The notes under the pieces are model-generated. The model saw nothing but the letters and a program-made list of their open reading frames with translations, was not told where the DNA came from and did no database searches. The position numbers and the translations under genes are program-made. 64,000 nt of DNA. Source: Candidatus Poribacteria bacterium. Its GTDB lineage: Bacteria > Poribacteria > WGA-4E > WGA-3G. Shown here piece after piece: positions 53,426 through 63,272 of the stretch; positions within the stretch are counted from its first letter, which is position 1; each line of letters begins with the position of its first letter. The stretch lies in assembly GCA_009839745.1 (NCBI GenBank), contig VXPE01000045.1:1-64000 (forward strand), written 5' to 3'.

Positions 53426-55828
53426 TTAATCAAGATTTTGGGAGAGTTTGGTTTGGATGGCATTAAAATCAGGTCCTTTGGGCATAATGAACAAACACTG
53501 TCCGCCCCCACGTGCCTCCCACAACTCACCGATCTCACGTTTTTCTTTCGCATCGTCGGCGGACCAGAGATGAACGCCTTTGTACTCAACAACCAGATAG
53601 CGTCCATCGGTCAAGAAACATACAAAATCGGGATAAAACCTGTCGGTTGAAGTTTGGAGCCAGAAGGAACGCAGGGGTTTGCGTTCAAGATTCCGTACCC
53701 AAAATTTAACTTCACGTAACCTGTCAATGAACTGCGCACATTGGAATTCCTCACCATCTGACTTTAGATCGCCAACATGTTGATAGTAGTGCTTCTGGAA
53801 TTGATAATGACCGGTATAACGGGTGTTATAGGGATAACTGTGCGGCTCAAAGGAGAAACAGTGGTCAGGTGAAACAACAACCGGAGTGGCACATTCGGGC
53901 AGAAGAAAGTTTTCATAGGTAGCCTGGTGCACGTTTTGGCGATGGTTATCAATTTTCTTCTCAGCGGCATCCTTCAGAGCATATTTATTGCGGATGAGGA
54001 CCTCTATTGGAATGTTGCGCTCGTCAATAAGATACTTGACTAACCGTTGTAAAAATGGCAGAGATTCACGTTGTAAAATATCCAGATGTTTAATGGTCCT
54101 GTCAAGCCAGTTTGCGAGTTGTGCAGCATCCCAATTGTCATCGGGTGCGAGAAAAGACATCTGCTGATGAAGTTGACCCAAAAACCGTATTTCCACTCTT
54201 CCTTCTTGAGAGAGCCCAACTTCACCACGCTCACCTGTGTTAAATTCCGAAGGAAATTCTTCCTCAGAGAGTTCAGCATCGCATTCGGACAATTGCCACA
54301 CGGTTTCTAAAAATCGTGATGCCTCAAAGTCAAGATACGTCTGGTCCCGCTTGACCATCAACTTTGGAATTTTAAAGACTTCACCGCGCGCAGCGGCGGT
54401 AGGTTCAGTATCAGGCTGTGTCGTGTCCTCAACAAACGGTAACTCACCTTGCTGCTCATTCGTAGGACGAATGAGTTCAGCGGCTGCCTGTTTCTCAAAT
54501 CCGTTCTGAACGAGTCCATCGGTTAAGGCAGCTGCAGCGTCATAGAAGTTCTGGGACGCAACAAAGGCATAAGCACTGTTCAGCGATTCCCGTTTCTTTC
54601 GCTGTGCTTTCGGAAGACGCATAACCCTTCCTAATATCTGTTCAACAGCAGTAGCGGACCTCATTTCGGCAACAGAGCAGAGAACGTAGGCAAACGGACA
54701 ATCCCATCCTTCCCGTAACGCTTGCACGGTGATGACATAGCGAATCTGACACTCTGGATCGTTGATGTCCACATCGTCAAGTCCTCTGTCCTCGCCTGTT
54801 GCACGCGCGATCTGGTCTTCAGGAATTGTGTGTTCCTCAAGTAGGCATTTCTCAACGACTTCAACCGTTAAAGTTTCTTGGTCTCTACGTCTTGGCTGCG
54901 CCTGAATCAGCATCACAGGACGGATGTATTCGCCTGTTTCTCGTCGTTCTTTTTCGGCATCTACTTCAAGGGCGTTACGTTGTGCAATAGCAGTCGCGAG
55001 CAGCCGTTTCCACTCAGGATCGGTTTCCAACTGAATCGGCATCTTAATCATATCTTCCGCTTGGAGTTCAGCGGCAGAAACGGTATAAAGGACATTGGAA
55101 GGGTTTTGTTCCGTATCAGGGGTCGCAGTGAATTCAATGATTGCAGAGGGGTTAAACCGAGCAAGTGTTTCAAAAGAGAGCTCGGTTCGGGCGTTGTGTG
55201 CCTCGTCAACGATAACGAGCGGACGTTTGACGCATAAAAGATTCGCGAGCGAATAAACAGGTTTACTATTTTCTCGCTCAATCCCTGAGAGTACCTCATC
55301 TGAAAGATGTGTGAAATGCCCCATTAACGCGCCGGAGGGTTCGTAAACCTTGCGACCATCGGTATCCTCAACACGGAACGCTTGCATCGTGGAAACGATA
55401 ATCGTGGTCTTTGTATTGAGAATATGCGGGGATAGGTAGAGTGCCTCGCCGATGGTGAGAATCTCGACGTTATGCCTTGCGGACCTAAACGCGTCCCTAT
55501 AGGGATGATCCGGATTTTTAAGGGCGTTGAGTGTCTGATCGCGGATGGCGTTTGAAGGAACAAGCCAAAGAACAATAGGACTCTCTGTCTTTAAGAGCTC
55601 AGATGCGGTGATACTGACAGCGTGGCATGCAACGAAAGTTTTGCCACCTCCTGTAGGGAGTCTGAGGCAGACATACGGCATACCGGGTAAACCATCAACG
55701 GAGGCGTAAGGTCGTTGGGTTAGGTCATAAAAAGCAGTGTTGGCGTTTTGTAGACGTAAGCAGTTTTGGTAATATTCTGTTAGGGTTTCAAGGGTGCGTT
55801 CTTGGTATTCTTTGAGAGGTAGGTGCAT
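53426..55828 (-). CDS. res: Type III restriction-like helicase-nuclease (Res subunit)
   Basis: The 800-residue SF2 helicase with C-terminal nuclease has Walker A RLPTGGGKTFVACHA (about 55-70), motif II IVDEAH (about 207), motif III EFTATP, helicase C LREGWDCPFAYVLCS and motif VI QILGRVMRLPKAQ. The final 110 residues carry a PD-(D/E)xK nuclease: FYPDFVCFLT then YLVVEYKG. This matches Res/type III helicases that translocate on DNA and cleave when paired with Mod. The Mod homologue is at 59805, about 4 kb upstream on the same strand, separated by four other genes. The start ATG at 55828 is the natural N-terminus (LKEYQERTLETLTEYY). Confidence 0.9.
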   Translation of the reverse strand: MHLPLKEYQERTLETLTEYYQNCLRLQNANTAFYDLTQRPYASVDGLPGMPYVCLRLPTGGGKTFVACHAVSITASELLKTESPIVLWLVPSNAIRDQTLNALKNPDHPYRDAFRSARHNVEILTIGEALYLSPHILNTKTTIIVSTMQAFRVEDTDGRKVYEPSGALMGHFTHLSDEVLSGIERENSKPVYSLANLLCVKRPLVIVDEAHNARTELSFETLARFNPSAIIEFTATPDTEQNPSNVLYTVSAAELQAEDMIKMPIQLETDPEWKRLLATAIAQRNALEVDAEKERRETGEYIRPVMLIQAQPRRRDQETLTVEVVEKCLLEEHTIPEDQIARATGEDRGLDDVDINDPECQIRYVITVQALREGWDCPFAYVLCSVAEMRSATAVEQILGRVMRLPKAQRKKRESLNSAYAFVASQNFYDAAAALTDGLVQNGFEKQAAAELIRPTNEQQGELPFVEDTTQPDTEPTAAARGEVFKIPKLMVKRDQTYLDFEASRFLETVWQLSECDAELSEEEFPSEFNTGERGEVGLSQEGRVEIRFLGQLHQQMSFLAPDDNWDAAQLANWLDRTIKHLDILQRESLPFLQRLVKYLIDERNIPIEVLIRNKYALKDAAEKKIDNHRQNVHQATYENFLLPECATPVVVSPDHCFSFEPHSYPYNTRYTGHYQFQKHYYQHVGDLKSDGEEFQCAQFIDRLREVKFWVRNLERKPLRSFWLQTSTDRFYPDFVCFLTDGRYLVVEYKGVHLWSADDAKEKREIGELWEARGGGQCLFIMPKGPDFNAIQTKLSQNLD

Positions 55829-55866
55829 CTTTTCTGCTTTCCAATGTTAGAAAGATATTTACTTTT

Positions 55867-56121
55867 TTAATATACAGATGAACGATGCCGAATTCGGGAG
55901 ACTTCAACTGTCAGCGTTCGTTTATCGTGAGTGTAGATCGCTCGATAGTCTCCGGAAGGCAACTTAAACTGTCCACTATATTTTCCTTTCAGTGCCTTAT
56001 GAGGATAGTCATCACAATTTTCACAAAGGTGTCTAAGTTTTCTAAGAATTTGCCTCTGAATTTTGGCATCCAAACGCCGCAAATCCCGCCTGGCATTTGA
56101 GGTCAATATCAATTCATACAT
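55867..56121 (-). CDS. RelE/ParE-family toxin
   Basis: The 84-residue protein has the RelE fold pattern: YELILTSNARRDLRRLDAKI, KLRHLCENCDDYPHKALKGK, then GQFKLPSGDYRAIYTHD and VSRIRHRSSVY. Toxins of this family cleave mRNA at the ribosome or inhibit gyrase. The C-terminal Arg/His/Tyr (RIRHRSSVY) and Lys/Arg surface residues support activity. The start overlaps the end of the upstream gene by 13 bp, the usual arrangement for a toxin behind its antitoxin. Confidence 0.88.
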   Translation of the reverse strand: MYELILTSNARRDLRRLDAKIQRQILRKLRHLCENCDDYPHKALKGKYSGQFKLPSGDYRAIYTHDKRTLTVEVSRIRHRSSVY

Positions 56122-56810
56122 TTCAAGTCGATTCCTAATTCTTCGGCGACCTCCTCAAGTGTATACATTTTACCACCGGACCGGATATACTCCTCCTCGC
56201 GTTCTAACTCTTCAATGAATTCTGGACGCAACTCCAATCCATCGTCTGGGTCGTAATCATAATTTTCAAGAAACAGTTCCAATTCCAAGTAGCAAACGAA
56301 AAATTCGTAGAATTCAGTACGTAGACGATACGATATCTCAATACGGTCATCCGTTTCCATTAACTTAACGAGACGTTCCCGCGATACAAAAAATCGCCAA
56401 TTTGCAAGTGTATGAACGAACCCCCGGAATTCATCAGGAGATAAAGCGGTAACTTTTATTTCTGGAACAGGATCACCGTGTACGGAGAGACCCATTCGCC
56501 GCGCTTCGCGTCCCAAAGGTGAACTTTTCCGCTGTGCCTCAACTGCTGAGATACGGTGATTCAGGTGTGCAAATGCATCGTTCTGCTCTATAATTCCAAG
56601 TATAACTTCTTCGTACTCCTCCAACTCCAAAGCAAGCACGTAGTAACCGTTAAAGAACTCCCGAAACTCTTCTTCAAGTTCGTCGTGAGGAGCATTCTTT
56701 GCAAGCAGTGCGATGAGTCGTTCACGGGATGTGAATATATCTTCGTTAACAATAGGCACGAGCCAATCTTTGAATTGTTCGAGGGGCATATCTGTAATAT
56801 TAAGTGTCAT
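56109..56810 (-). CDS. Putative antitoxin with an internal duplication, partner of RelE
   Basis: The 233-residue acidic, helical protein contains the same unit twice. Residues about 7-70 read MPLEQFKDWLVPIVNEDIFT-SRERLIALL...EEEFREFFNGYYVLALELE. Residues about 122-200 read LSPDEFRGFVHTLANWRFFV-SRERLVKLM...RTEFYEFFVCYLELELFLE. The end, KMYTLEEVAEELGIDL, looks like the antitoxin segment that meets the toxin. It overlaps the relE-like gene by 13 bp. Usual RelB-type antitoxins are 70-100 residues, so the length and duplication are unusual. I do not recognise the family; antitoxin status is inferred from position. Confidence 0.6.
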   Translation of the reverse strand: MTLNITDMPLEQFKDWLVPIVNEDIFTSRERLIALLAKNAPHDELEEEFREFFNGYYVLALELEEYEEVILGIIEQNDAFAHLNHRISAVEAQRKSSPLGREARRMGLSVHGDPVPEIKVTALSPDEFRGFVHTLANWRFFVSRERLVKLMETDDRIEISYRLRTEFYEFFVCYLELELFLENYDYDPDDGLELRPEFIEELEREEEYIRSGGKMYTLEEVAEELGIDLKCMN

Positions 56811-56910
56811 TTTATTACTTCCAACGATTGTACATGTATAGTTTTTGCGAATTTTTATACATATCAGGAGTAATATGCATAATTTCTATACATATTGCCA
56901 GGATGTGCTA

Positions 56911-57882
56911 TCAAAGGACTACGTTCCGTAAATCACGACATTCTTTCAAATGAGAACTTTCCGCCATATTCAGCGTAAAGAAGTTTCGCAAAAATTCATT
57001 GTCTTGATCAAAAAAATCAAACCCTCGTTCGATTCGGATAATAGCGTGTTGTGTCTCTAAATATCTTGCATGGAAGATTCGTCTGGGATCATTTTTTATC
57101 AAGAAATTTACCGGCCAAGGGAACCGTTGCTGTAACGGTGTTATGAGTTCTTGAACGATTCTACGGTGCTGTTCCTGAACCCGAATATATTGATCACTGC
57201 ACGTAAATATCTCCACACTTCCGGCCCCCTGCTGAGATACAAAAAAACCGTGATCATACCAAAGAGATAGAATATATTCAATGCCCTCTCGGAAATCGTT
57301 CGTATTGTTTCCTCGCCCAATATATGGATCATAAAACCGAAGCCATTTGGTGAAACGGACCGAACGAATGATGATGTTTTCCACTTCTGATTCGGGAAGT
57401 GTGTCTATCGGCCCAATTTGGCTTTCGTAACGCTGGCGGTCTTTCTCAAAATCACTATCGCGATACTCGGATAACGGAACAATATCTTCGCTATATCTTT
57501 GATCAGACTCTAGTCTTTCTAGACTCTCGTTTCCAACAATTAAAGCATCGGCTTCAGTATCTGCTTTCAAGTTATATGCCAGATCTAAAAGGTTCATTGA
57601 TGGAATATTACCTAACGAAAGATGACACGCAATAATCCGTCTTGTTCCCTTTTTCAGTAAGAGTTCCTCAACTAAAATACGCAACCTTCCCCGAGGTTTG
57701 CTTGGGAGAGCTTCGTACTGTCTGACAAGGGCATCTCGCAGTCTATTTCCCGAGTCAACAATCAGTAGTCCGTTTTTTTGGATACCCTTTAAGAAATCAA
57801 CCGCCTGAATCATATAGAGTTCATTTTCGTCAAAGTACTCCACATCAAATGCAGAAGGATCAAGCACTGCACTGACAAGCAT
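56911..57882 (-). CDS. Putative nuclease effector next to a DUF3696 ATPase (PIN-like N-terminus, MIT_C/PLD-like C-terminus)
   Basis: The product is 323 residues, with AAGGAG 10 nt upstream. The N-terminal 145 residues (VSAVLDPSAFDVEYFD, NGLLIVDSGNRLRDALV, ADALIVGNESLERLE) have a PIN-like or Rossmann-like feel with scattered Asp. The C-terminus (about 170-323) contains WLRFYDPYIGRGNNTNDFRE, then HARYLETQHAIIRIERGFDFF and HLKECRDLRNVVL. This pattern recalls the phospholipase-D-like MIT C-terminal domain (H-x-R...GRGxDxF). Both assignments are from memory and weak. The gene starts 16 bp after the ATPase stop, so the two form a unit, as in two-gene ATPase-effector defence systems. Confidence 0.5.
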   Translation of the reverse strand: MLVSAVLDPSAFDVEYFDENELYMIQAVDFLKGIQKNGLLIVDSGNRLRDALVRQYEALPSKPRGRLRILVEELLLKKGTRRIIACHLSLGNIPSMNLLDLAYNLKADTEADALIVGNESLERLESDQRYSEDIVPLSEYRDSDFEKDRQRYESQIGPIDTLPESEVENIIIRSVRFTKWLRFYDPYIGRGNNTNDFREGIEYILSLWYDHGFFVSQQGAGSVEIFTCSDQYIRVQEQHRRIVQELITPLQQRFPWPVNFLIKNDPRRIFHARYLETQHAIIRIERGFDFFDQDNEFLRNFFTLNMAESSHLKECRDLRNVVL

Positions 57883-57898
57883 CTAAACACTCCTTCCA

Positions 57899-59485
57899 CT
57901 ATCTAAGTTCCCTGAGGCGTTCCGGGAAAAAACCGTCGGGCCATTCATCAATGAAATCACCTTCCTCATCAAGACGCAAACGTTCTGCTTTTGCCCCTTC
58001 AGGCCCACGGCTGACGTAGATAACCGAAACATCTTCTGGTTGGATGCGTTTTTCATAGACTAAGCGTTGCAGCCGTAAGATCAAATGCTCGCTGTGGGTT
58101 TCTACAATAAACTGATTGTGACGTGGTTCTTTAATAGCTTCAGCTAAGAGGTCTCCCAGGTCCGCCTGCAACCTCGGATGTACGTGAACTTCAGGCTGTT
58201 CAATAGAGATAATCTGTTTCTCTGAAACCAAGCTCTGGACAACAAAGGGAAGAAGTTGACTAATACCAAAACCTACATCTGGTAACGCTACATCTATGCC
58301 TTCTTTTCCTTTTCGACGCGTATCTACGAGCCTAACTTCAAAAAGGTCGCCTGAATCAGTTCCGACAGGCTTCACCTTGAGTTTATAGCCTATATCAAGT
58401 TGTTCTAACCATTGATTTGCTTCTTTAACAAGCTCAGGGCGTCGTAAGAGTAAATCAGGAAGCAAGTCTCCTCGGTAACCTACATCCTGTGGACTGGTTC
58501 CTGTAAAGATGTACCATCTTTCTGGAGGTCTCCGAAAAGGTCCCATTGGGAAAAGAGCTTCCAAAGTTTGTTCTAATGCACGACCTGCGACCATAGTCCA
58601 CTGAGCAACATCAAATACTCTGTGGTCAAACCTCCCACGTAATACAGAACGGGGGTCTGCTGCCCTTCTAGGCTTCCTTTCACTAGAAATGGCTTCAAAA
58701 GGCAGGAAACCTTGCATACCTAAACCAGTGTCCATCTCGTGCTTGTGCATCTCGGAAATGTAAGTCTTCAAATCAAAGTTAGATGAGAAAAATTTGATGT
58801 ATTCATCCAAGGAATCCACTGCTTCCTGAAGTCTGTCAGCATCTTCTCGAAGTGCTTCTTTAGAATATTGTTGATTTAAATCTGATTTTTCTTCCTCAAA
58901 CCGGCTGAGTATCTCTTTCCTATTCTTTTTAACCCACTCAAACTCCGGTCTCCAGTATCTTGCAGCTTTTGTTAACCAAACACACTTTACTGCAGCTAAT
59001 TTTGATGGCCGAGGACCACGCAAATTAATGTAAAACGAATGAAACAAAAAACCCAAGAATTCATCAGGTTCTACAGTGGCACCTGATGGTTGAAACTTAG
59101 CAATACATCTAGCAGGATTTCCGTAGTAAATTTTGATTTGATCTAAAAGGACTTCTTCTTCAAGTGAGGGTCTTTTAAAACTGAATTCAACAGATACTTG
59201 ACGATCTATCTTGGTTTCCACACGAATTGAGAGTGTCCGCTTTAGCTCGTGATCGAAAAGTAACTCCTGGAAACTACCAAGATCGACGATACCATTTTCG
59301 GTCCGGGGAAGCAACAAAGCTCCTGTCTCGCGGCTTTCCCGCGTCTGCTTGAGCAGATTGAGTGCTTGCAGGATTGTGCTTTTTCCCGCACTGTTTTCGC
59401 CAAAGATGAGCGTTATCGGTGCAAAGGGGATGCGTGCACGCTCCCCGAATGCTTTGAAATTTTCTAATTCCAGTGCATGAAGCAT
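57899..59485 (-). CDS. DUF3696/AAA ATPase (SMC-like ABC ATPase)
   Basis: The product is 528 residues from ATG 59485 (AGGA 9 nt upstream; the in-frame sequence further upstream is rejected). Walker A ITLIFGENSAGKSTILQALN (about 26-45), then a helical insertion (about 120-260), then QLLPFVVQSL and Walker B IISIEQPEVHVHPRLQADLG (about 433), the switch His VETHSEHLIL, and the DUF3696 tail EWPDGFFPERLREL. Similar ATPases act in OLD, PARIS-like and other phage-defence systems. It is coupled to a putative nuclease and lies downstream of mod and a MITE. A defence role is inferred. Confidence 0.88.
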   Translation of the reverse strand: MLHALELENFKAFGERARIPFAPITLIFGENSAGKSTILQALNLLKQTRESRETGALLLPRTENGIVDLGSFQELLFDHELKRTLSIRVETKIDRQVSVEFSFKRPSLEEEVLLDQIKIYYGNPARCIAKFQPSGATVEPDEFLGFLFHSFYINLRGPRPSKLAAVKCVWLTKAARYWRPEFEWVKKNRKEILSRFEEEKSDLNQQYSKEALREDADRLQEAVDSLDEYIKFFSSNFDLKTYISEMHKHEMDTGLGMQGFLPFEAISSERKPRRAADPRSVLRGRFDHRVFDVAQWTMVAGRALEQTLEALFPMGPFRRPPERWYIFTGTSPQDVGYRGDLLPDLLLRRPELVKEANQWLEQLDIGYKLKVKPVGTDSGDLFEVRLVDTRRKGKEGIDVALPDVGFGISQLLPFVVQSLVSEKQIISIEQPEVHVHPRLQADLGDLLAEAIKEPRHNQFIVETHSEHLILRLQRLVYEKRIQPEDVSVIYVSRGPEGAKAERLRLDEEGDFIDEWPDGFFPERLRELR

Positions 59486-59625
59486 AAGATTTGTCCTAAT
59501 TGGAAACCTTTGTTTTTCAATATTTCTTGCGTAGGGCACAGACTAACAGTCTATGCTACAAAGTGGCAACTGAGATTAGTATACGAGATTTGAGCGGATT
59601 TGTCAACACCATTAACCACTCCCGA

Positions 59626-59792
59626 CAGGGTCATTCAATTTTAAGGAATTACATGGTTTTATCTTTTAGCGAAATCTAGCGAAATGGTGCGAATATTTCC
59701 GCTTTGACCGGATTTATAACATAACATAACATACATTAATTATTAACAAATATAAAAATACTACATAAAAATACTACAATTGAATGACTCTG
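59626..59792. mobile_element. MITE-like element with matching direct-repeat flanks
   Basis: The 15-bp terminal inverted repeats CAGGGTCATTCAATT (59626-59640) and AATTGAATGACTCTG (59778-59792) differ at one position. They are flanked by direct repeats CCACTCCCGA (59616-59625) and CCACTCCCAG (59793-59802), identical at 8 of 10 positions. This is the structure of a transposed element with target-site duplication, and CAGGG ends recall ISAs1-type elements. The interior has no gene but several short tandem words: AGCGAAAT twice, TAACA repeats, AAAAATACTAC twice. It lies between the mod stop and the ATPase gene and may supply promoter sequence. Confidence 0.7.
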
Positions 59793-59804
59793 CCACTCCC
59801 AGTC

Positions 59805-61493
59805 CTACACAAGATTATACGGCATTTGGCGGAAGGTGATGCCCAACTGCTTTAGGGTGGCTTCGGTGAGTTGGGTGCCTCCGCAATGGATAATCTTGCT
59901 GCCCTCGTGCCGCGGTAAGCGATCTATGAGATCCTCAGTCAGAATGTCGTCACTGTTGAGTAGGTAGACCCCGACACCATCCGCGTTACCTAAAAAGGCG
60001 CGTTGGTGTCTTTCATCAGTATTACAAGCACCATACGACGGGCTATCCCCCTCTAAAAGGGACTGCGCAATGTCTACTGCCATTGGCATTCCTGTTTCCT
60101 TGAAAAAGAGGTACTGTGCCATCTCACTAAACAGAATGTCCTGTTTTTCCAAGAAGGTTTCGCCGACATGATAATAAGAAAAAGTTCCACCAATGCCGTA
60201 CACATGTTGCAGCCTACCCCTCCTCTCAAAGGTGTACCCTTCGCTGACGCGTTCAAGGCGGACAGATGTAACCTCACGGGCTATTTTCGACTTCATCTCA
60301 ACTAAAATGAAACGTCGATTACCTCGATCCTCACGGTTTTGTTCCAGAACAGCATGAGCTGTTGTACCACTACCTGCGAAGGAGTCAAGGATAACGTCAT
60401 CTCCTTCTGTAGAAAGACTAACAAAGTCCTTCAAGAGTTGAATAGGTTTAGGATTGTCAAATACTTTCTCGCCAAATATTTCCTTTAATACAGTCGTCCC
60501 GTTTCCACTGCTATATTCAGGTTTGTAAAGCAGAGATTTTGGTTTTCTGGTTGGTAAATTGCCGAGGGCAGGTCTCTGTTTCTTGAATAGACTAATCCCA
60601 GAGTCTGTCCTCTCTACCATAAGGTTGTGAGACTCTGTAGTCACCTTCTGTTTTCCCCATCTCCAACTCATTTCCTGACCATCTGTCATCGGTAGAACTT
60701 CTTCATAATTTCTGGTTTCACAACCCTCTATGACTGTTAACTCATCTTCGGGACTAACAAATATTGGATAATATAAATTGGGTCTTTTAGCTCTTGGAGC
60801 ATTTTGCCCAGTGGCTTTTAGACCGGCTCCTTTTTTATAATATCCATAATCATCTTCTAGCCACGAATCCAGTATTTCCTCTTCGTCCAATTCAAACTCA
60901 CCAATTTGGGAATATTCTTTATTTTTTGCCCAACAGAGTGTATATTCATGGGTTCCAGCAAATCCGAATTCATCGTTGTTGCCTTTAAGATTCATTACAG
61001 TTGGCAAGCAGGCAATAAGGTTAACTTCACCAAAAATCTCGTTCATTAGCAATTGCAAGTGATGTAACTCATTATCATCAATTGAGATGAAGATAATCCC
61101 GTCCTCTCGAAGGAGTTGATGGAGGAGACAGAGGCGTGGATACATCATGCAGAGCCACTTATCATGTCGCGAGAGATCTGTGGCGAGTGCCCCTACCGTC
61201 TTTCCAAGCCACTTCTGAATGGTTGGGTCGTTAACGTTATCATTATAGACCCAACTTTCGTTACCTGTATTATAAGGCGGATCAATATAGATGCATTTGA
61301 CTTTACCCGCGTAATAAGGGAGGAGTGCTTTGAGGGCGAGGAGGTTATCGCCTTCAATGAGGAGATTCCCAGTGCCGAGCGGTTCGTTTTCAGTCCCAAG
61401 GGAGCGATCAGGGTCGTGTGTCAAGGTGTGTATCGGGACTTCGTCATGGTGGTTGATGACGGCTTCTTTTCCGATCCAGTTGAGGGTTGGCAT
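59805..61493 (-). CDS. mod: Type III-like site-specific DNA methyltransferase (Mod)
   Basis: The 562-residue beta-class amino-methyltransferase has the catalytic motif IYIDPPYNTGNESWVYND (DPPY, about 68-85) before the SAM-binding motif DVILDSFAGSGTTAHAVLEQ (about 370-390). LCMMYPRLCLLHQLLREDG and NNDEFGFAGTHEYTLCWAKN are also Mod-like. It methylates adenine N6 (or cytosine N4) in the recognition site. The region between the motifs (about 150-350) would hold target recognition. It should work with the Res homologue at 53426 as a type III restriction-modification system, though other genes separate them. Confidence 0.93.
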   Translation of the reverse strand: MPTLNWIGKEAVINHHDEVPIHTLTHDPDRSLGTENEPLGTGNLLIEGDNLLALKALLPYYAGKVKCIYIDPPYNTGNESWVYNDNVNDPTIQKWLGKTVGALATDLSRHDKWLCMMYPRLCLLHQLLREDGIIFISIDDNELHHLQLLMNEIFGEVNLIACLPTVMNLKGNNDEFGFAGTHEYTLCWAKNKEYSQIGEFELDEEEILDSWLEDDYGYYKKGAGLKATGQNAPRAKRPNLYYPIFVSPEDELTVIEGCETRNYEEVLPMTDGQEMSWRWGKQKVTTESHNLMVERTDSGISLFKKQRPALGNLPTRKPKSLLYKPEYSSGNGTTVLKEIFGEKVFDNPKPIQLLKDFVSLSTEGDDVILDSFAGSGTTAHAVLEQNREDRGNRRFILVEMKSKIAREVTSVRLERVSEGYTFERRGRLQHVYGIGGTFSYYHVGETFLEKQDILFSEMAQYLFFKETGMPMAVDIAQSLLEGDSPSYGACNTDERHQRAFLGNADGVGVYLLNSDDILTEDLIDRLPRHEGSKIIHCGGTQLTEATLKQLGITFRQMPYNLV

Positions 61494-61547: not shown

Positions 61548-61823
61548 TCAAATTATTTTATCACGTTTTGCCACGTTACAGGGTTTACATCGCAAGGTCA
61601 GATTTTCCCATACAGTGAGGCCACCCCGTGCGTATGGAGTTATGTGATCGGCATCGAGTTGTCTAAAGCCTGCGGGACCACAGAAAACTTTTTGGCAGTC
61701 GGGACACACATAGCCGCCACGACTTTTGTCAAAGTTCCGAAGGAAATATGATTGTTTCCATTCAGCGGGAAAAAATCGAGCCTGTGGATTACATGGAGGG
61801 AGATTAGGGGGGAGTGAGCTCAA
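61548..61823 (-). CDS. HNH endonuclease
   Basis: The product is 91 residues from a TTG that overlaps the stop of the DUF262 gene (TTGA). Two CxxC pairs for zinc (VCPDCQ and LRCKPCN) frame the HNH core DADHITPYARGGLTVWENLT (first His, central Asn), with the last Cys-Asn of the motif. The protein is minimal for an HNH nuclease and starts with a Pro-rich stretch (MSSLPPNLPPCNP). Translational coupling to the DUF262 protein suggests the two act together, as the DUF262 and HNH-type domains do in GmrSD restriction enzymes. Confidence 0.88.
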   Translation of the reverse strand: MSSLPPNLPPCNPQARFFPAEWKQSYFLRNFDKSRGGYVCPDCQKVFCGPAGFRQLDADHITPYARGGLTVWENLTLRCKPCNVAKRDKII

Positions 61824-63061
61824 GGATATGTGTCCACAATTTTCGCTAAAAGAAGTTTCGCCATATCACACTGCGCCTTTTGACCTCGATCCCCTTTCCA
61901 GCGGCCCCTTGACTCTGGATATCCTCCTTTTCGCTTAAGCCATCTTTCCCCTGCTCTACGCGGGGTTTGTATAAATCCCGCAATCGCGTCCCACGCGTCA
62001 AAACTCAGCTTATCTGCATCAATACCTAACTCAACCGCAGCTCCGATCAAGAGTGCCATTTGCTTGTACTTATCAACACTTACACCCGGAAGTCCACGTC
62101 CAAGGATCGCCCCTATCCACTGAGCGAAACTACGGAAGTCGTCTTCAAGTCCATTTCCATACGTAGGAAAAACAGGGGTTCCCCCTTGTGTATCTGTATA
62201 TTGTAATTGTGCACAATAGATGTCTAATGCCCCTTCTGTGGATCCATGAAATGCAAGCGGGAGATGTTTCATTAAATTCGGAGATGAAAGGAGCACATCC
62301 AACTTCTCTCTATGCATAAAGACAAGGTACCAGAGAACCATTGCTGATGGGGTTTGTCCTTTGGCGCGGTCTTTGCCTTCCCACCAATCTTTCCAAAGTT
62401 CCCATATCTCAGGATACTGCTTCCAAGGATTGTCTACACCCTTTTGACGTGCCGCTTCTATCATCCGCTTTGCCGAGGAAGAATCGGCATGAATTCCGGC
62501 AAGGCGCACGAAGTACACGCACTTCGACTCACTATAATAGGAAAGACGAATATCTTGGGCAGTTAAAGGGGTTCCACCTTCATTGATACGCCGAAAGATT
62601 TCAAGTTTCGTGCGGAGATCCAATCGGGGTGGAAGGTAAATGATTGTAAGTGGGTATCGTCGAAAGACAGTTTTGAATTTCTGAGGAAGTTCCGAAAACT
62701 TCTTTCCACTATAGTGGATACTTTGTGGCGAAAGATAGTTAATATCGTCGTCCGCGTTTAAACGGAGCTTGTCGCGCTCATATTTCAGGATTGTATTCAA
62801 GCGTTGTTGCCCATCAATCACTTCAGAAATGCTTGTATCCAGATCATCTAAGAAAAAAAGCGCAGGGGTCGTCAGATTGTTCAACAACGATTCTATGAAA
62901 AGTGATTCTTTTCGATCACCCCATTGTTCAGCATCTCGCTGATAATCTGGAATGATAATGTCGCCTCTATTAAAGTTGTTAATAATAGTTTCAACACTCT
63001 CACTCTGTGTTCGGGTGGGTTCACTCACGATTGGCGCGATTTCTACACTTTCTTCGGTCAT
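61820..63061 (-). CDS. DUF262 (GmrSD N-terminal, ParB/Srx-fold) protein
   Basis: The product is 413 residues from ATG 63061; a longer start inside the previous gene is less likely. The DUF262 motifs are TIINNFNRGDIIIPDYQRDA (about 25) and the active-site loop EVIDGQQRLNTIL (about 80). FRRINEGGTPLTAQDIRLSY follows. DUF262 proteins sense or cleave modified DNA with NTP hydrolysis in GmrSD, or act in BREX-like settings. The C-terminal half is helical and lacks the DUF1524 HNH domain; a separate HNH gene follows with overlapping stop and start. It lies just upstream of mod. Confidence 0.88.
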   Translation of the reverse strand: MTEESVEIAPIVSEPTRTQSESVETIINNFNRGDIIIPDYQRDAEQWGDRKESLFIESLLNNLTTPALFFLDDLDTSISEVIDGQQRLNTILKYERDKLRLNADDDINYLSPQSIHYSGKKFSELPQKFKTVFRRYPLTIIYLPPRLDLRTKLEIFRRINEGGTPLTAQDIRLSYYSESKCVYFVRLAGIHADSSSAKRMIEAARQKGVDNPWKQYPEIWELWKDWWEGKDRAKGQTPSAMVLWYLVFMHREKLDVLLSSPNLMKHLPLAFHGSTEGALDIYCAQLQYTDTQGGTPVFPTYGNGLEDDFRSFAQWIGAILGRGLPGVSVDKYKQMALLIGAAVELGIDADKLSFDAWDAIAGFIQTPRRAGERWLKRKGGYPESRGRWKGDRGQKAQCDMAKLLLAKIVDTYP

Positions 63062-63062
63062 A

Positions 63063-63272
63063 TCATTTTCCTCTTCCTTTTTCCTTGCGCTTCTCGGGTG
63101 GCACGTAATACGAAACAACTTTCATGCCTTTCCGTCTGCACTCTTCTTGAACTTTTCGCATATACGCCGAGAGTTCTTCAACAGAGTTGAATTGAGCAGA
63201 AAGTTCCTCTTTTATTCGATAGCACTCTTCAAGGATGGGATCTGTGTAGTTTTCAAAATCTTCTTCTTTCAT
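63063..63272 (-). CDS. Small antitoxin-like protein downstream of a VapC remnant
   Basis: The product is 69 residues: EDFENYTDPILEECYRIKEE then LSAQFNSVEELSAYMRKVQE and a basic end VVSYYVPPEKRKEKGRGK. It resembles the small partners (DPIxEExxxIREE...) found beside PIN-domain toxins in cyanobacteria and related bacteria. The ATG lies in the 3' end of the PIN remnant frame and has no strong Shine-Dalgarno, consistent with translational coupling. Its stop abuts the DUF262 start. The function is likely an antitoxin left without an intact toxin. Confidence 0.6.
   Translation of the reverse strand: MKEEDFENYTDPILEECYRIKEELSAQFNSVEELSAYMRKVQEECRRKGMKVVSYYVPPEKRKEKGRGK

Follow-up and report, generated by a model that had tools for sequence, protein, structure and literature searches.

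An ISAs1-related MITE in Poribacteria, and a constant insertion offset of its lineage upstream of sigma70-type promoters

In a genome of Candidatus Poribacteria, a short element separates the methylase gene mod from the ATPase gene downstream of it, which raises the question of whether the element brought a promoter to the ATPase gene or was aimed at one already present. The locus lies in a 64,000-nucleotide stretch of DNA, here called the window. Our results favor the second answer. With a probability of roughly 0.88, the element is a MITE related to ISAs1 insertion sequences, its lineage inserts at a fixed offset upstream of sigma70-type promoters, and docking on RNA polymerase is the likeliest way in which this is achieved. 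The features of the locus are as follows:

57899..59485, minus strand: ATPase gene (AAA_15/AAA_21 type, by Pfam), predicted to be driven by the promoter at 59578..59606
59578..59606, minus strand: predicted target promoter, reading toward the ATPase gene (TTGACA 59606-59601, spacer 17, TATACT 59583-59578)
59616..59625, no strand: left copy of the target duplication, CCACTCCCGA
59626..59792, no strand: MITE with ISAs1-type ends, 167 bp
59626..59640, plus strand: left terminal inverted repeat, CAGGGTCATTCAATT
59778..59792, minus strand: right terminal inverted repeat, CAGAGTCATTCAATT on the minus strand, one mismatch against the left
59793..59802, no strand: right copy of the target duplication, CCACTCCCAG, equal to CCACTCCCGA at 8 of 10 positions
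59805..61493, minus strand: mod, N6/N4 DNA methylase gene, whose 3' end faces the MITE

The terminal inverted repeats are 15 bp each with one mismatch and the 10-bp flanks agree at 8 of 10 positions, in line with the original prediction of a MITE with terminal repeats and a target duplication. The interval given there, 59616-59802, spans the element together with both duplications, and the MITE itself is confined to 59626-59792. It is short and AT-rich and has no transposase gene. The short tandem words described earlier are present in it, but they are internal sequence common to other copies and thus do not serve as evidence for a promoter. In one such copy (G014:C89:176579-176651) the GCGAAAT words of the MITE (window 59669-59701) are repeated at 20-bp steps; they are a small tandem repeat expanding within the MITE family. 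An unusual DNA structure of the element was also considered and rejected, its folding being no better than that of shuffled sequences (z -0.89; 39 of 200 shuffles as good).

Other copies in the genome and an ISAs1-like transposase with the same ends had been named as things to look for, and both were found. When up to two mismatches were allowed, the 14-base MITE end matched the genome 54 times (27 per strand), compared with 7 matches for a reversed control motif; the ends are commoner in the genome than chance. Six further copies had two ends, namely C34 (210 bp, duplication 10/10), C3 (124 bp, 9/10), C11 (123 bp, 9/10), C9 (134 bp, 9/9), and C6 and C31, at whose flanks a duplication was sought and none was clear. 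A search with the whole element gave matches in 28 of 145 genomes, of which 26 belong to the genus of 38 genomes (own genome counted), and copies were thereby found in 25 of its 37 other genomes. The 20-base MITE end, with one mismatch allowed, was found in 34 of the 38. The exact 20-base end occurred in 50 stretches of the genome_contigs collection, from which records of the own genome are possibly omitted, and all 50 are titled Poribacteria. At about 420-765 of locus L003, a truncated frame resembling an IS982-type transposase by eye (putative) precedes a lone MITE-type end.

Members of the ISAs1 family are about 1.2-1.5 kb long, with ends starting CAG and duplications of 8-10 bp. The Poribacteria elements resemble them in size, CAG ends, duplications, and a PF13808 transposase, and the full copies have MITE-like ends. 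PF13808 matches were found in 17 of the 38 genus genomes, and in some of these genomes there are ISAs1 elements that are intact and about 1.34 kb long, with both MITE end types, CAGGGTCATTCAATTGTAGG and CAGGGTCATTCAATTTTAAG, at their termini (L135, L145). The 20-base MITE ends are the two ends of these intact copies, with small differences at the right end; the left end of the MITE is of the IS right-end type (TTTTAAG), and its right end of the IS left-end type (TTGTAG). Duplications of 10/10 together with CAG ends were observed in L131-L133, L135, L139, L145-L147, L151-L153, L075, and L076, and the transposases of L133 and L132 matched PF13808 and PF01609 above the cut-off. The element is therefore a non-autonomous relative (MITE) of a Poribacteria ISAs1-family insertion sequence, and the shared ends, duplication length, and target rule described below suggest that it was moved by the ISAs1 transposase. 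In the own genome PF13808 was matched twice, both times with an internal stop; each match sits in an element of 1341 bp that has the ends CAGAGCCATTTAGTT and is flanked by an exact 10-bp duplication (L075, 104-1444; L076, 580-1920; the stop lies in the PF13808 part of both). As this genome is 96% complete and both of its PF13808 matches are interrupted by a stop, the MITE in the window may now be immobile. L076 adjoins a promoter with perfect spacing, and L075 does not.

Relatives of the locus were gathered via the mod gene, and 18 loci, window included, align at the mod 3' end. One of them (L156 in G015; mod 100% identical over the query) ends at a contig edge inside an element end identical to that of the window. 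Among the 17 readable mod spacers, 3 are occupied (the window, G024, and G014) and 14 have no element end; these supply the empty sites in relatives that the original prediction had proposed to compare. Since L158 and L168 look identical in the spacer, at most 13 of the unoccupied spacers are independent. Between the promoter and the insertion point, the unoccupied spacer of G033 (L171) is nearly identical to the flank in the window. All 14 unoccupied spacers have a -35/-10 pair, with an exact TTGACA in 13; over the 17 readable spacers, the best pair has an exact TTGACA in 16, and L157 has TTGTCA with TATTAT. The distance from the element end to the -35 is 19 bp in all three occupied spacers.

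The same spacer and the same distance might be taken to mean that one old insertion was inherited by all three species. This is highly improbable, for the three duplications (CCACTCCCGA; TGATAAAAAT; TACGCTGCAT) differ and each is matched only in its own species (8, 8, and 10 of 10), the G014 element is reversed, and G011 is unoccupied though close to G024 in the mod spacer. The differing duplications and the reversed element indicate that the insertions in the three species are three separate events. The shared 19-bp distance led to a wider test of the promoter offset.

A first look at 51 insertions found 27 near-perfect -35 hexamers at offset 9, that is, 9 bp outside the 10-bp duplication and 19 bp from the element end. 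For the main set, insertions had to have ends with no more than 3 mismatches each, a suitable length, and a duplication of at least 8/10, promoters being disregarded. Thinning by flank similarity reduced 114 raw insertions to 73 (25 IS and 48 MITE), whose duplications were 10/10 in 50, 9/10 in 14, and 8/10 in 9. Other offsets in the same flanks and ISAs1 copies without the signal served as controls; elements of the IS256 type (PF00872) had 0 matches in the 38 genus genomes. A -35/-10 pair with at most 4 mismatches of 12 stood exactly at offset 9 in 58/73 insertions (22/25 IS and 36/48 MITE), and pairs with at most 3 and 2 mismatches did so in 49/73 and 36/73. At other offsets (0-109 without 8-10), the mean numbers of pairs at up to 2, 3, and 4 mismatches were 0.11, 0.41, and 2.35, and the maxima were 2, 3, and 6. 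A binomial estimate for the offset-9 peak, which treats the insertions as independent, is about 5e-72. Offsets 8 and 10 had 12 and 14 pairs (at most 4 mismatches), with 2 to 3 farther away; for offsets 8 to 10 together, a pair was present in 62/73 insertions, and 3 insertions had a pair on both sides of the element. Of the 6 insertions kept from the own genome, 4 had the pair at offset 9, the exceptions being L014 and the IS copy L075.

A forecast of at least 60% was fixed before further copies from G014, G020, G025, and G032 were tested. The 75 loci scanned, 29 of them previously seen, yielded 31 raw elements; 19 were already counted and one was a repeat, which left 11. These insertions were not in the first set, yet at least G014, G020, and G032 had loci there. 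In keeping with the forecast, an offset-9 pair was found in 8/11 (at most 3 mismatches in 6, at most 2 in 5), with a mean of 0.29 elsewhere. No pair stood at offset 9 in 15/73 insertions of the main set and 3/11 of the new copies. Statistically, these counts show that the target of ISAs1 insertion sequences and MITEs in Poribacteria begins 9 bp upstream of a sigma70-type -35, a rule that the original prediction did not contain.

One could suppose that there is no targeting, and that insertion is random with survival only at harmless sites upstream of promoters. Promoter-proximal intergenic sites are plausibly mild ones, but survival cannot set a distance to one base, and the counts of 12, 58, and 14 at offsets 8, 9, and 10 make this explanation scarcely credible.

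Judged by their sequence, the sites at offset 9 appear to have the features of real promoters. The spacer of the 58 offset-9 pairs was 17 in 47, 18 in 8, and 16 in 3, and TG preceded the -10 in 33/58. In elements with enough flank for this count, outward ORFs (100 aa or longer, starting no more than 300 bp away) were present on the promoter side in 27/30 and on the other side in 15/30. TTGACA (at most 1 mismatch) was present at the offset in 37 flanks, and a -10 (at most 2 mismatches) accompanied 35/37, compared with 1454/10470 TTGACA sites (13.9%) in a background of all loci L001-L313, offset sites included. Both orientations to the promoter occur; among full IS copies, 15 had the promoter at the 5' end of the transposase and 7 had it at the 3' end.

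Beyond the genus the signal is weaker or absent. In 32 ISAs1 insertions from the same family, other phyla, plasmids, and viral contigs, pairs (at most 4 mismatches) peaked at 17 bp (7/32) and 19 bp (5/32) from the element end, while every other distance between 8 and 59 bp had 0 to 2 pairs. For plasmids, 10 regions were taken from 40 listed of 834 records; clear ends with a duplication were found only in L333, L335, and L337, which are counted among the 32. None of these three has a pair at 17-19 bp, and L333 has one at 14. A further 38 insertions were kept from another order. In 7/38 of these a near-perfect TTGACA lay at 18 bp (mean 0.55), and a -10 (at most 2 mismatches) accompanied only 2/7; pairs were less clean, with 7 at 18 bp, 5 at 49, and 4 at 23. 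The TTGACA sites at 18 bp are in L474, L477, L478, L479, and L487 (G662), L442, and L491. The kept ISAs1 copies of G618 (0/7) and the first type of G474 (0/9) had no promoter signal, and the second type of G474 had weak pairs in 2/6. The generic end finder used here missed many elements (35/109 loci gave an element, 32 kept; 39/90 in the other order, 38 kept), and some chosen end pairs are possibly wrong, L349, L369, and L403 being doubtful. An over-representation of ISAs1 elements between convergent genes is reported in PMC9208149 and counts against a family-wide rule of promoter targeting. Together with the weaker or absent signal in other lineages, this places the promoter rule in particular ISAs1 lineages and not in the whole family.

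Given the rule, the transposase would probably dock on RNA polymerase, either as a transposase complex binding the holoenzyme at a promoter or on promoter DNA as held by the polymerase. Full insertion sequences and MITEs alike are aimed at a fixed place, with the duplicated target beginning 9 bp upstream of the -35. The promoter stays whole, so that the element settles next to a gene and leaves it unbroken; that it lies upstream of an intact promoter is evident from the insertions themselves, and the benefit of this position seems plausible. It is also possible, though on balance doubtful, that the transposase itself reads promoter DNA, chiefly the -35 hexamer, with RNA polymerase uninvolved. 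This would suit the G662 copies, where TTGACA (at most 1 mismatch) lies 18 bp from the end in 5/8 kept insertions, and the few good -10 elements at the 7 such sites of that order; copies with TTGACA at 18 bp perhaps represent a lineage reading the -35 alone. It would also suit the Poribacteria spacers, since the -35 offset is constant and the -10 offset moves with the spacer (6 spacer-18 cases with the -35 at 9). However, the -10 accompanies nearly every such -35 in Poribacteria, far above background as noted, and in 22/73 insertions the -35 at the offset departs from the consensus by 3 to 5 mismatches, mostly in company with a good -10.

Similar behavior is known from other elements. According to the accessible text of PMC3942029, TnGBS, ISLre2, and ISKra4 target sigmaA promoters and insert 13-17 bp upstream of the -35, TnGBS/ISLre2 (p-MULT 3 transposases) do so at 15-17 bp with the promoter whole, and the proposal made there is that the elements contact the polymerase initiation complex. 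As presented there, TnGBS/ISLre2 share with the Poribacteria elements the fixed distance and the intact promoter, but have Mutator-like transposases and mostly one orientation, whereas the Poribacteria elements occur in both orientations, lie at 19 bp, and include MITEs that obey the rule too. The ISKra4 group (p-MULT 4), in the same text, has nearly symmetrical ends and, like the Poribacteria elements, targets promoters from both sides and in some lineages only. Its transposases are unrelated by Pfam to those of Poribacteria (PF13808 with PF01609), and no Mutator-type model was among the Pfam matches of the three Poribacteria transposases scanned. Because their transposase is of another kind, the Poribacteria elements act like TnGBS, ISLre2, and ISKra4 but are not members of these groups. 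In yeast, the Ty1/Ty3 retrotransposons integrate beside promoters via the transcription machinery; they differ in being eukaryotic retroelements that use RNA polymerase III. They are cited as an analogy in the accessible part of PMC3942029.

ISAs1 is not named in the accessible text of PMC3942029 (0 occurrences), promoter targeting by ISAs1 was not found in the accessible parts of PMC3281130 and PMC9208149, and no report of it appeared in the literature searched, most subscription journals lying outside that search. From PMC3942029 the targeting rule is known for TnGBS/ISLre2 and ISKra4. Tentatively, and at somewhat less than even odds, we propose that ISAs1 transposases, unrelated to the Mutator-like ones, independently gained docking on sigma70 RNA polymerase, precise in Poribacteria and graded in the family (17, 18, or 19 bp, or absent), with MITEs riding along genus-wide. 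If so, base-exact promoter targeting in bacteria would extend to a second kind of transposase, and MITEs would be shown to profit from it. Targeting and non-targeting lineages within one family would make promoter finding testable by exchange of parts, and in uncultured bacteria without transcript data such insertions would flag probable promoters.

In the window, the target was the predicted promoter of the ATPase gene that follows mod, and relatives have this promoter without the element. The original prediction had suggested that the MITE adds a promoter, freeing the downstream module from mod, and this did not hold up: the TTGACA-17-TATACT promoter lies outside the MITE, and a promoter is kept in the 14 MITE-free spacers. 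A promoter supplied by the MITE was accordingly rejected. A scan of the whole 501-bp region gave 3 promoter matches (1.8, sd 1.2, in shuffles) and none inside the MITE directed toward the ATPase gene; two weaker matches (9/12) inside it are both on the plus strand, away from that gene. An AT-rich element with short tandem words could in principle supply the ATPase module with a promoter or some other control, but this is very unlikely with the promoter outside the element, present where the element is absent, and with no internal match in the right direction. The fixed offset rule and the promoter in element-free relatives indicate that the promoter was the target of the MITE and was not brought by it. 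The insertion shifts the mod 3' end 177 bp away and leaves the ATPase promoter intact. By the estimated transcription start, it would replace the sequence upstream of about -55, and a strong effect of the MITE on ATPase gene expression is not expected. The surrounding minus-strand region (window 53426-61493) contains a type III restriction-modification pair (mod and res), between which lie the ATPase gene, two genes without a Pfam match, and a ParE-like toxin gene; a GmrSD-like gene is located upstream of mod at 61820-63118.
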